Shown here: positions 44,108 to 51,519 of the stretch, one piece after another
How positions within the stretch are numbered: position 1 is the first letter of the stretch
Layout of the letters: every line of letters starts with the position of its first letter
Assembly (NCBI GenBank): GCA_018268055.1
Contig: JAFDXF010000093.1
Coordinates: 1-64,000, forward strand
DNA from: Bacteroidota bacterium
GTDB taxonomy: Bacteria; Bacteroidota; Bacteroidia; Chitinophagales; Chitinophagaceae
DNA: 64,000 nucleotides
Direction: 5' to 3'
Notes under the pieces: model-generated
The model's input: the letters and a program-made list of their open reading frames with translations, nothing else
What the model was told of the DNA's origin: nothing
The model's database searches: none
Program-made: the position numbers and the translations under genes

Positions 44108-44896
44108 TTGCCTCCATTTGTTGGGTATATTTTAATTGGTATAGCAATACTATCAGTATTAGCTTATCTGCTTCAGGAGCGACTTATTTTCAAACCTGAA
44201 AAGCTAAAACAGGATTTTCAATTTCGATATGATGCACCTTTCAAAGAATATTTTTTTGATATTGAACAAGGCGTACGCATCAATGGTTTACATTTTTACA
44301 GAGAAAATCCCAAAGGTTTGATACTTTATTTTCACGGAAATACACGAAGTATAAAAGGATGGGCACGCTACGCAAAAGACTTTTACCGATATGATTACGA
44401 TGTTGTACTCGTTGACTACCGCGGTTTTGGCAAAAGCACCGGAAAGCGTAGTGAAAAAGATATGTTGAACGATATGCAATTTGTGTATGATAGATTAAAC
44501 GAAAAATATAATGAAGATCACTTAATCATATACGGCAGAAGTATGGGTAGCGGATTTGCTACCAAACTGGCATCTGATAACAATCCAAGATATTTAATTT
44601 TGGATGCTCCGTATTTTAACTTTCTAAGAGTGATAGAAAGGTTCTTACCTATTTTGCCTGTAAGATTTGTACTCCGTTATCACTTGCGCACAGATAAATG
44701 GTTACCCAATGTGAAATGTCACACCTATATTATCCACGGCACGAAAGACTGGTTGATTCCGATAAAACAAAGTGAAGCACTACAAAAAATCAATCCTAAC
44801 AAAATTACACTCATTCGTATTCAAGGAGGCGGACATAACAATTTGCCTTCTTTTCCCGAATACCACCATTTTATCAGAGATATTTTGAAATATTAA
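44108..44896 (+). CDS. Membrane-anchored alpha/beta hydrolase, paralogue 1
   Basis: The 262-residue protein has one N-terminal transmembrane segment and an alpha/beta hydrolase fold with the nucleophile elbow GRSMG (Ser in IIYGRSMGSGFA near residue 144), oxyanion motif YFHGNTRS and His in GGGHNNLPSF near the end. Aspartate is expected in IHGTKDWLIP. It is similar to the Bem46/ABHD family. The only credible start is TTG at 44108, because a stop lies upstream in frame and the first in-frame ATG is internal. The next hydrolase at 46249 is a paralogue. Confidence 0.86.
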   Translation: MPPFVGYILIGIAILSVLAYLLQERLIFKPEKLKQDFQFRYDAPFKEYFFDIEQGVRINGLHFYRENPKGLILYFHGNTRSIKGWARYAKDFYRYDYDVVLVDYRGFGKSTGKRSEKDMLNDMQFVYDRLNEKYNEDHLIIYGRSMGSGFATKLASDNNPRYLILDAPYFNFLRVIERFLPILPVRFVLRYHLRTDKWLPNVKCHTYIIHGTKDWLIPIKQSEALQKINPNKITLIRIQGGGHNNLPSFPEYHHFIRDILKY

Positions 44897-46204: not shown

Positions 46205-46248
46205 AATTTAATCTTTGCACAACATTAGAAAATACAATTTTGGTTAAT

Positions 46249-47061
46249 ATGTGGAAGCGCAAAGCAATTAAATGGCTAAAAATAATTTTTATAATATATG
46301 TTGCAGGCGGCATTGCATTGTATTTTTTGCAAGATGCCATTTTGTTTCACCCCGTTACATTAAAAAATAATCATCGTTACAATTTTCCGGAGCCACATAA
46401 AGAACTACGAATGGCTGTATACGAAAAAGACACTATAAGCCTGATCAATTTTTTAAGTACTGATACTATCACAAAAGGAGTTGTTCTATATTTTCATGGC
46501 AACAAAAGAAATATTTCTTGGTACAATCGTTTTATGCCGTACTTCACAAGGCATGGATATGAAGTATTGATGATTGACTATCCCGGATATGGAAAAAGCA
46601 CCGGCAAACTGACTGAAGAAAAACTATATGACTGGGCGCACAGGGTTTATCAAATGGCATTACAGCGTTTTAAACCGGAAAGCATCATCATCTTTGGCAA
46701 AAGTATGGGTACGGGCATTGCAGCTCAGTTGGCATCTATCAATCAGTGTAAGCAACTAATTTTAGAAACTCCTTACTATGATTTTCCTTCTGTCATCAGT
46801 CATTATTTACCTATCTATCCTATACGCTGGATGTTGCATTACGAATTGCCCACTTACCGTTATTTACCAAAAGTAAAAGCGCCTATTACCATTTTTCAAG
46901 GCACTGATGATCGGCTGGTAACTTACAGCAATGCGATTAGACTTAAACCATTACTGAAACAAGGCGATGAATTTATTACCATTGAAGGCGGAAGCCATAA
47001 TGATCTTTTTCAATTCAAAGAATTGACCGATAAGTTAGACTCTATTTTAAGGCTACAATAA
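46249..47061 (+). CDS. Membrane-anchored alpha/beta hydrolase, paralogue 2
   Basis: The protein has 270 residues from ATG 46249 (the upstream TTG at 46240 adds three residues). Layout and motifs match paralogue 1: N-terminal transmembrane segment, YFHGNKRN, nucleophile elbow IFGKSMGTGIA near residue 146, IFQGTDDRLV and GGSHNDLFQF near the end. Its stop overlaps the stop of the convergent LD-carboxypeptidase by 9 bp. The substrates are probably lipid or peptidoglycan-related esters, but this is not shown. Confidence 0.86.
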   Translation: MWKRKAIKWLKIIFIIYVAGGIALYFLQDAILFHPVTLKNNHRYNFPEPHKELRMAVYEKDTISLINFLSTDTITKGVVLYFHGNKRNISWYNRFMPYFTRHGYEVLMIDYPGYGKSTGKLTEEKLYDWAHRVYQMALQRFKPESIIIFGKSMGTGIAAQLASINQCKQLILETPYYDFPSVISHYLPIYPIRWMLHYELPTYRYLPKVKAPITIFQGTDDRLVTYSNAIRLKPLLKQGDEFITIEGGSHNDLFQFKELTDKLDSILRLQ

Positions 47062-48036: not shown

Positions 48037-48067
48037 TTGAATCTGCCTACGAAAATTATTATCTTTA
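48037..48067 (+). promoter_or_regulatory. Putative promoter of the DUF1016_N-repeat gene
   Basis: TTG (48037-48039) is 20 bp upstream of TATCTTTA (48060-48067), a near match to -33/-7 Bacteroidota elements. The ATG at 48076 follows after 8 nt, implying a very short leader. Confidence 0.45.
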
Positions 48068-48075
48068 ATACTATT

Positions 48076-49320
48076 ATGGATAATGAAAATAAACTAACAT
48101 CCGAAATCTCAAAAATTCTTGCACGAAGAAGGGATATTATCAAACAATCCATCAACAGTAAAACTTTATTACTATTTTGGAATATAGGAAAGTATTTTCA
48201 TGATTTACAGAATGACCAACGACAGTCAAAAACCAAAAAAGAAAATATTCACTTTGTTTCAGAATGGTTAGCTCTACACTACGGACAAATTTTTGACGAG
48301 AAAGGGTTATCTCAAATGCTGCAATTTTATAAATCCTTTCCTCAACTTACTAAAGATAATTATGAATTATATCTTGTTGATTGGGATGATATATTAGAAC
48401 TATTAAAAGTATCTAATTCAAATAAGCAACAATTTTATTTTAATCTAAAAATAAAACAAGGGTTAAGTACTCAGGAATTAAAACAAGCTATCCGGTTAAA
48501 TAAATATACCGCAACCAATAAAGAAACAACTGCTGATTTGCATCAATTGTTGAGCAGTAAGAAAAACAAAAAAGATGCGGAAACACTCAAGCACATAATT
48601 GAAATAAACGACAAGAGCATAACCTCTTTTTTCATTAACACATTTACGAATAAAATATTTCCCCATCTAATATCAACAAAACAAATTCAAAAAATCCCAA
48701 AGCATTTAATACATTATGAATCACTCATCAATTTAATAAACGATTATAAAAATCAGGTAAAGGAAGGATTAGTCGAGCATTTCAGCTATTTGTATTGGGA
48801 AATAGGAGCTACTTTAAATCAAAAAAATCAAGCTATTAAAAAAACAAGAGTACAATCAGTCGACAATAAATATTTAAAGAAAATATCACAACCGGATGAA
48901 AACCTATTCAGTCTTAAAGAGTTGAAAAAAATGCAGCAGTTCGCACTGTATTTTCCTGATGCACCCGATGCTGTTCAGGTTTTAAAATCACTCAGCATGA
49001 ATCAATTGAATATTTTGCTGCAACTACATAATCATAATGAATTTAACTTCTACTTTGATCTATTATTCATACAGAATCTCCATCTCAAAGATTTAAAGCA
49101 AAAAATAAATTTAAAAAAGAATAAGTCGATCCCCACAAAATATCAATCAGCTATATTAGCAACGTTCAGACAAAATCTGCTCAAAGAGGTACAAATAACA
49201 AAAGCAGGTAACTCTATAGTTCAAACTACTTCCTTAATAATCAAATCTAATGTAGAGATAAAAACAAATTACAATATTCTTAAAAATAAACTTTTCCTTG
49301 ATTTGCTCATGAGGGCTTAA
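48076..49320 (+). CDS. Protein with two DUF1016_N-like repeats and no nuclease domain
   Basis: The 414-residue, Lys/Asn/Gln-rich protein resembles the winged-helix N-terminal domain (DUF1016_N) of YhcG-family PD-(D/E)XK nucleases. I see it twice. Repeat 1 spans about residues 8-140 (LARRRDIIKQSINSK, LLFWNIGKYFHDLQ, GLSQMLQFYKSFPQL) and repeat 2 about 215-345 (YLYWEIGATLNQK, LKKMQQFALYFPDAP, then FNFYFDLLFIQNLHLKDLKQ). The usual C-terminal PD-(D/E)XK domain is absent; only about 70 residues follow repeat 2. The start is ATG 48076, not the upstream TTG at 48037. Its stronger A/T bias suggests recent acquisition. Function may be a protein- or nucleic-acid-binding adaptor. Confidence 0.7.
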   Translation: MDNENKLTSEISKILARRRDIIKQSINSKTLLLFWNIGKYFHDLQNDQRQSKTKKENIHFVSEWLALHYGQIFDEKGLSQMLQFYKSFPQLTKDNYELYLVDWDDILELLKVSNSNKQQFYFNLKIKQGLSTQELKQAIRLNKYTATNKETTADLHQLLSSKKNKKDAETLKHIIEINDKSITSFFINTFTNKIFPHLISTKQIQKIPKHLIHYESLINLINDYKNQVKEGLVEHFSYLYWEIGATLNQKNQAIKKTRVQSVDNKYLKKISQPDENLFSLKELKKMQQFALYFPDAPDAVQVLKSLSMNQLNILLQLHNHNEFNFYFDLLFIQNLHLKDLKQKINLKKNKSIPTKYQSAILATFRQNLLKEVQITKAGNSIVQTTSLIIKSNVEIKTNYNILKNKLFLDLLMRA

Positions 49321-49381: not shown

Positions 49382-49389
49382 TATTTTTG
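49382..49389 (+). promoter_or_regulatory. Putative -7 promoter box of metG
   Basis: TATTTTTG is an exact consensus match 24 bp before the metG ATG at 49414. The only upstream TTG (49367-49369) is 12 bp away, shorter than the usual spacing. Confidence 0.35.
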
Positions 49390-49413
49390 CGGATTATTTA
49401 CGACAATTCAATT

Positions 49414-51519
49414 ATGGATAATCCAAAAAGATATTTAATTACTTCTGCCCTACCCTACGCCAATGGTTTAAAACACATCGGGCACTTAGCAGGTGCATAT
49501 ATTCCTGCAGATATATATGTGCGCTACTTACGGGCACAAAAGCGAGATGTCGTATTCGTTTGCGGCAGCGATGAGCATGGTACTGCAATTCCCATTCAGG
49601 CCGCAAAAGAAGGGACTACTCCACAAGCTATTATTGATAAATATCATGAAGCAATGAAACAGGACTTTGCAGACCTGAGTATCAGTTTTGATATTTATCA
49701 CAGAACATCTTCGCCACTTCATCATGAAACAGCACAAGCCTTTTTTACAAAGCTGAATGATGCAGGTGAATTAGAACTAAAAGAAACCGAGCAATATTTT
49801 GACGAAGCAGCAAAAACATTTCTTGCAGACCGATACATAAAAGGCACTTGTCCCAACTGTGGAAGCGATAGAGCTTATGGCGATCAATGCGAAAATTGTG
49901 GCAAAGCATTAAGCCCCGAAGAATTAATCAATCCAATTAGTACATTAAGCGGTTCAAAACCCATTAAGAAAAAAACAACACACTGGTATCTTCCATTAGG
50001 CAAGCACGAAGAATTTTTAAAGAAATGGATTTTGGAAGAACACAAGAATGACTGGCGTGCAAATGTAGTGGGACAATGCAAAGGATGGATTGAAGGCGGA
50101 TTACAATCAAGAGCCGTAACGAGAGATTTGGACTGGGGAATCAAAGTGCCGGTGCAAGGTGCAGATGGTAAAGTATTATATGTATGGTTTGATGCACCAA
50201 TTGGTTATATCAGCGCTACAAAACAATGGGCAATTGATAATGACAAAGACTGGCGCCCTTATTGGGAAGATAAAGAAACAAAATTGGTTCATTTTATTGG
50301 AAAAGACAATATCGTTTTTCATTGTATTATATTTCCAATCATGCTCAAATTGCATGGCAATATTTTGCCCGACAATGTGCCTGCCAATGAATTTTTAAAT
50401 CTCGAGGGAGATAAAATGAGTACCAGCCGCAACTGGAAACTTGAAATGCGTGACTACATTAATGACTTTGTAAAAAAAGATAATGGCGGCGGCCAGATGG
50501 TGGATGCATTACGTTATTACCTCACAAGCATAGCTCCAGAAACAAAGGATAGTGAATTTACATGGAAAGGTTTTCAAACCGCTTACCGAAGCGAGCTCAG
50601 CGATGTGTTTGGGAATTTTGTCAATAGAACTTTTGTATTGATGCACAAACTCTGTGGCGGCAAAGTCCCAGTTTTTCATCAAGACATTTTAGATGAAAAT
50701 GATAAAACAATTATAGCAGAGTTCGAAAATACAAAAGGTTCTGTTCAATCAGCCTTAGAGTATTATCATTTCAGAGATGGACTTTTTCAAGTGATTGAAT
50801 TAGCCAGAAAAGGCAATCAATACATGCAGAAAAAAGAGCCATGGATTGTGGCAAAACAATTAACCGAAAATCCAGATGCGCAAAAGCAAATAGATAATTG
50901 CATTTATATCTGTTTACAATTGTGTGCCAACCTATCTATACTCATTAATCCATTCTTGCCGAATACGGCAAAAAAAATGTTGTACATGATGAAAGTAGTG
51001 GACAAAATGCTGGAATGGGAAAATGCAGGCAAATTGAATTTACTCAAAACAGGCTATTCGCTTCGCTCACCGGAAATTTTATTTAGAAAAATGGAGGATA
51101 GCGAAATAGATGCTCAAATAGAAAAATTAAAATCCGGTTTAACAAAAGAAACAAATAAAAAAGTGGAAGAAATAAAAAACACAACTGCGAAGTCTGAAAT
51201 CGTCTATGATGATTTTGCAAAATTGGAATTAAAAGCAGGAACTGTTACTGCTTGCGAGAAAGTAGAGAAAGCAGATAAACTTCTAAAATTAGAAGTTGAT
51301 TTAGGAGCAGAAAAAAGAACCATCGTTTCCGGTATTGCATTACGATACAAACCAGAAGAAATGGTGGGAAAACAGGTTGTAGTTGTAACGAATCTTGCAC
51401 CAAGAAAAATGAAAGGAATAGAAAGTCAAGGAATGATATTGACTGCAGAAGATAAAGACGGAACGCTACAATTACTCAAACCTGAAAACTTAGTTGCACC
51501 CGGCTCTAATGTCAGCTAA
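49414..51519 (+). CDS. metG: Methionyl-tRNA synthetase
   Basis: MetG charges tRNA-Met. The 701-residue protein starts at ATG 49414 (MDNPKRYLITSALPYANG), and an upstream in-frame TTG at 49387 is not needed. HIGH lies at residues 21-24, the zinc-binding CPNCG/CENCG pair near 149-165, and the KMSKS motif appears as KMSTS near 335. The C-terminal 110 residues form a tRNA-binding OB-fold (Arc1p/EMAP-II-like) with FAKLELKAGTVTACEKVE. A -7-like box TATTTTTG lies at 49382-49389. Confidence 0.97.
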   Translation: MDNPKRYLITSALPYANGLKHIGHLAGAYIPADIYVRYLRAQKRDVVFVCGSDEHGTAIPIQAAKEGTTPQAIIDKYHEAMKQDFADLSISFDIYHRTSSPLHHETAQAFFTKLNDAGELELKETEQYFDEAAKTFLADRYIKGTCPNCGSDRAYGDQCENCGKALSPEELINPISTLSGSKPIKKKTTHWYLPLGKHEEFLKKWILEEHKNDWRANVVGQCKGWIEGGLQSRAVTRDLDWGIKVPVQGADGKVLYVWFDAPIGYISATKQWAIDNDKDWRPYWEDKETKLVHFIGKDNIVFHCIIFPIMLKLHGNILPDNVPANEFLNLEGDKMSTSRNWKLEMRDYINDFVKKDNGGGQMVDALRYYLTSIAPETKDSEFTWKGFQTAYRSELSDVFGNFVNRTFVLMHKLCGGKVPVFHQDILDENDKTIIAEFENTKGSVQSALEYYHFRDGLFQVIELARKGNQYMQKKEPWIVAKQLTENPDAQKQIDNCIYICLQLCANLSILINPFLPNTAKKMLYMMKVVDKMLEWENAGKLNLLKTGYSLRSPEILFRKMEDSEIDAQIEKLKSGLTKETNKKVEEIKNTTAKSEIVYDDFAKLELKAGTVTACEKVEKADKLLKLEVDLGAEKRTIVSGIALRYKPEEMVGKQVVVVTNLAPRKMKGIESQGMILTAEDKDGTLQLLKPENLVAPGSNVS

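Follow-up and report, generated by a model that had tools for sequence, protein, structure and literature searches.

YhcG proteins are widespread and usually combine an N-terminal DUF1016_N domain (PF17761) with a C-terminal PD-(D/E)XK nuclease domain, YhcG_C (PF06250), and they are counted amongst the phage-defence candidates in PADLOC. Our literature searches found no paper establishing YhcG function and none treating ParB together with DUF1016. A 2005 paper characterised this N-terminal domain as helical and as lacking a confident structural match (PMC1189080). Here we analysed a 64,000-nucleotide stretch of DNA from a member of the Chitinophagaceae (assembly GCA_018268055.1, contig JAFDXF010000093.1; "the window" below), in which a gene with two DUF1016_N domains lies between genes that, named from their sequences, are those given in the initial annotation, an LD-carboxypeptidase gene and metG.

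An intact tandem DUF1016_N gene without a nuclease

The tandem gene (48076-49320, forward strand) is one uninterrupted open reading frame of 414 aa, with an in-frame TTG at 48037 as a possible alternative start that would add 13 aa. The initial annotation had placed two DUF1016_N repeats at about residues 8-140 and 215-345, and Pfam drew nearly the same limits, with domain 1 at aa 10-144 (48103-48507, forward strand; 76.1 bits) and domain 2 at aa 219-346 (48730-49113, forward strand; 47.3 bits), both above the family cut-off of 32.8 bits. The likeness of the repeats to each other, also claimed there, held up as well: the two halves aligned with a BLOSUM62 score of 109, against 39.8 ± 7.4 and a maximum of 80 in 1000 shuffles, and a profile-profile comparison of the first and second domains of the tandem proteins gave E=4e-25.

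The predicted absence of a nuclease was likewise confirmed, in that Pfam found no YhcG_C match in the window protein or at the locus, and no nuclease motif could be read in the C-terminal 45 aa, a tail of low model confidence. This tail (aa 370-414; 49183-49317, forward strand) carries a KxGNS...F motif that is conserved in alignments of relatives, and it is mostly unmodelled with low pLDDT. DUF1016_N was the only family above cut-off in the Pfam scan, in which an N-terminal CTPase domain was not found, PHROGs and NCBIfam profiles gave nothing credible, and a PDB sequence search with the window protein (P0001) and with the YhcG protein of the same genome returned no match at a meaningful E-value. 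A Glycos_transf_1 match (E 0.011) fell under its cut-off and was set aside. The window gene thus encodes an intact nuclease-free tandem protein rather than a broken YhcG. Its richness in A/T, Lys and Asn was as annotated, with a GC content of 0.288 vs 0.361 and 0.376 in the neighbouring genes, 12.8% Lys and 8.9% Asn, and the protein is basic (pI 9.6).

Distribution of the tandem family and its relation to YhcG

Relatives were sought in several hundred related genomes, up to phylum level. The same two-domain layout recurs at ten other loci, spread over nine genomes that are mostly from Chitinophagaceae, which makes eleven genes in ten genomes with the window; the other carriers are G056 (two copies), G047 (Chitinophaga tropicalis), G264, G489, G556, G699, G550, G819 and G304. 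G819 lies outside the window's order, the G556 gene is cut by the beginning of its contig, and the G304 protein, which was located via its neighbour gene, is more diverged, with a recognisable first domain and a tail that is alike by eye. DUF1016_N was matched by all eleven proteins, and a K-x-G-N-S-like tail motif is common to most of them in alignments. GC content was lower than in the flanks for each of the ten tandem genes measured (G556 was left out), and the window gene was probably acquired horizontally. The second tandem gene of G056 (L081:4947-6230) is very diverged and has no lipoprotein gene beside it.

Searches of broader collections added little to this distribution. Single-protein pattern scans of genome-contig and viral-contig collections recovered no relatives; with an alignment of three rows, two loci were recovered from the genome-contig collection and none from the viral-contig one. 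Plasmid and phage records gave partial matches only, none covering 80% of the protein and the best up to about 44%, and the best rows were annotated mostly as PDDEXK nucleases.

Both repeats are related to the N-terminal domains of YhcG (profile-profile E 3e-28 and 8e-25), whereas the tandem form differs in having two such domains, a tail of its own, no PD-(D/E)XK domain and a separate position in the domain tree. In a tree of single domains, the tandem domains and all 58 YhcG N-domains fell on opposite sides of a branch with an SH-aLRT of 99, and the window domains were not especially close to the YhcG of their own genome. Most second domains grouped together, with long branches that leave the details unsure, and this grouping fits one old duplication; an old origin of the tandem arrangement is therefore supported. 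By these sequence comparisons the tandem proteins are a small, scattered and nuclease-free offshoot of the YhcG family. That the genes are decaying, functionless remnants of duplicated YhcG genes is very improbable: they are indeed sporadic, fast-evolving and devoid of the nuclease, but they remain intact open reading frames at about 20% identity, with invariant tryptophan and phenylalanine and a common tail, and they are repeatedly linked to one type of neighbour.

The initial annotation had also envisaged a binding or regulatory partner of a YhcG nuclease encoded elsewhere, and a complete YhcG is in fact present in the same genome (C8:90211-91275; DUF1016_N 149.9 bits, YhcG_C 197 bits), where YhcG_C matches occur on contigs C8 and C43 only. 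Since its domains are homologous to those of this intact YhcG, the tandem protein could pair with the N-domains of the full-length enzyme and steer or block the nuclease, as an adaptor or dominant-negative form. We consider this unlikely, as YhcG_C was detected in 6 of the 10 carrier genomes and had no match in G056 (which holds two tandem genes), G304, G556 and G819, all 98-100% complete, and no tandem gene adjoins a YhcG gene in the loci read. Retention of the tandem gene thus does not need a YhcG nuclease. Accordingly, the description as a nuclease-free derivative of the YhcG N-domain stands, and the partnership with YhcG does not hold as a general role, the commonest neighbour being instead a secreted lipoprotein.

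Likeness of DUF1016_N to ParB and Noc

The AlphaFold2 model of the window protein showed the same series of helices twice, with a mean pLDDT of 74 and values of 78-96 over most of domain 1. VIA-align ranked ParB, Noc and Spo0J first (Z 6.1-8.0 for the whole model, rising to 8.6 for the C-terminal half), values that are modest for helical folds, in which a Z under 9 can reflect a chance arrangement; the next unrelated protein, Raf1, scored 4.9-5.9. Domain 1 (model residues 29-149) aligned to Noc 7ol9 with Z 6.8, and domain 2 (237-350), which was covered by only one other sequence in the full-length alignment, still matched Noc 7ng0 with Z 7.4, or 8.6 in the C-half model. Foldseek E-values were weak (0.5 or worse), and its high-probability matches were to ParB and Noc. 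A search of a viral fold library with the model gave no significant match.

Sequence comparisons pointed in the same direction. HTH_ParB (PF17762) was matched by 12 of 27 DUF1016_N sequences (best E 2.3e-5; spanning about 43 residues in the two rows inspected) and was, besides DUF1016_N, the only Pfam family matched by more than one of them. A DUF1016_N profile searched against PDB sequences placed Spo0J 6sdk first (E 0.0038), and profile comparison with 28 ParB proteins yielded E-values of 3e-4 (YhcG N-domains), 0.012 (first tandem domains) and 0.12 (second tandem domains), in about the same register. Taken together, structural and sequence lines that are each weak alone make a relation of DUF1016_N to Noc and to the chromosome-partition protein ParB likely, and they support a putative assignment of the predicted fold to that of the ParB/Noc helix-turn-helix DNA-binding domain. 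Each half of the window protein would thus resemble the central DNA-binding domain of ParB/Noc/Spo0J in predicted fold, and YhcG N-domains resemble it weakly in sequence.

The tandem proteins differ from ParB/Noc/Spo0J in lacking the N-terminal CTPase domain and any detectable HTH_ParB match (none of 11), and in a presumed recognition helix that carries fewer basic residues. The mean charge of this helix was +2.2 in YhcG, +0.7 in first and -0.2 in second tandem domains (p 0.001 and 0.0002, kinship ignored), and four of the eleven proteins have a pI of 5.4-6.1. The reduced helix charge, these pI values and the missing HTH_ParB match count against a regulatory, DNA-binding role of the tandem proteins, as does the lack of a significant operator palindrome at the start codon of the window gene, where 18 of 300 shuffles gave a dyad as good.

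The LD-carboxypeptidase-metG slot

metG was present in all 40 genomes of the genus, and 30 of the loci, some incomplete, were read. In the closest relatives a divergent LD-carboxypeptidase gene adjoins metG with 84-480 bp between them, and amongst the genus loci read the tandem gene occupies this slot in the window alone. Because the gap is empty in the nearest relatives, the tandem gene was probably inserted. A -7-like box, TATTTTTG (49383-49390, forward strand), read from the sequence and assigned by the Bacteroidetes consensus to the metG promoter, is shared with the nearest relative, which would place the tandem gene upstream of a kept metG promoter. At the tandem gene start codon, ATTATGGATAAT (48073-48084) is repeated at the metG start (49411-49422), and these 12 bases lie within a 35-nt stretch that is 74% alike (48055-48089 vs 49393-49427); they are perhaps a microhomology of the insertion, or chance.

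Two further features of these surroundings were recorded. In several genus members (L158, L159 and L160-L164) the slot is occupied by a secreted-looking gene of about 380 aa that begins with a signal-like sequence, so that this site seems to accept insertions. Elsewhere in the window, two similar-looking alpha/beta-hydrolase-like open reading frames (44108-44896 and 46240-47061) flank one of 387 aa.

A secreted partner and the proposed role

In 6 of the 11 loci (the first copy of G056, G047, G264, G489, G550 and G304), a gene for a secreted protein lies 21-81 bp upstream of the tandem gene on the same strand. As read from sequence, five of the six partners have a lipobox-like start and that of G489 a plain signal-like one. 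A C-terminal domain of about 108 aa is common to four of them and turned up in only 8 of the 244 family genomes; its profile led to the G304 partner, and the open reading frame downstream of that partner then turned out to encode a DUF1016_N protein. The G264 partner is related to that of G304 (E 7e-22). Lone copies of the secreted protein occur in G574 and G378, with another near a contig end in G047. No partner matched a Pfam family above cut-off and the five tested gave no credible PADLOC match; an AbiTii match on one partner (E 0.012) was under cut-off and was set aside.

The window gene has no adjacent secreted-protein gene, and none was detected in its genome, though the search could have overlooked a diverged one of the G264 type. 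Altogether, five of the eleven tandem genes lack an adjacent partner, one of them being the G556 gene inside which the contig starts, and this weakens the case for a two-gene cassette.

One explanation of the linkage is that the tandem protein has lost DNA binding and binds the lipoprotein, as an immunity protein, export helper or sensor, in a cassette with a possible part in phage defence or competition. This would fit the tight linkage seen at six loci, each in different genomic surroundings, as well as the loss of basic helix residues and the matches of the N-domain to PADLOC candidate PDC-S02 models. Both window domains match many of these models (best 1e-35), whereas the models that span the entire YhcG of the same genome also contain the nuclease; to our knowledge there is no defence assay of the tandem form. 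We regard such binding as possible but doubtful, because the predicted signal peptide and mostly lipobox-bearing start of the partner would put the mature proteins on opposite sides of the membrane, the partners lack Pfam matches above cut-off and the five screened lack credible PADLOC ones, and none was detected for the window gene.

Our preferred reading, itself tentative, is that the window protein is a nuclease-free YhcG offshoot, probably acquired horizontally, whose ParB/Noc-like domains would act in the cytosol to regulate or scaffold a mobile lipoprotein cassette, from which it is orphaned here. On this view the YhcG N-domain would supply the nuclease with its DNA-binding half. If DUF1016_N has the ParB/Noc DNA-binding fold, a chain with two copies would mimic the dimer of YhcG or ParB and may act as a built-in one. 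The tandem protein would remain in the cytosol and regulate or scaffold the two-gene cassette, most simply by controlling its own operon, a role in which we have modest confidence, and the window copy may persist as an orphan without its lipoprotein.

A broader interpretation is rather unlikely, namely that a mobile two-gene system of Bacteroidota joins a cytosolic YhcG-derived protein with two ParB/Noc-like folds to a secreted lipoprotein whose C-terminal domain is undescribed, that both act jointly in defence or competition, and that DUF1016_N is generally a ParB/Noc-type DNA-binding domain. Were the last part true, YhcG nucleases would gain a DNA-targeting module. A ParB/Noc relation gives DUF1016_N a testable role, and the tandem form coupled to a lipoprotein shows a reuse of this domain apart from its nuclease. 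Acetyl-CoA synthetase-like genes were also seen near three tandem or lipoprotein loci (L080, L182 and L183).
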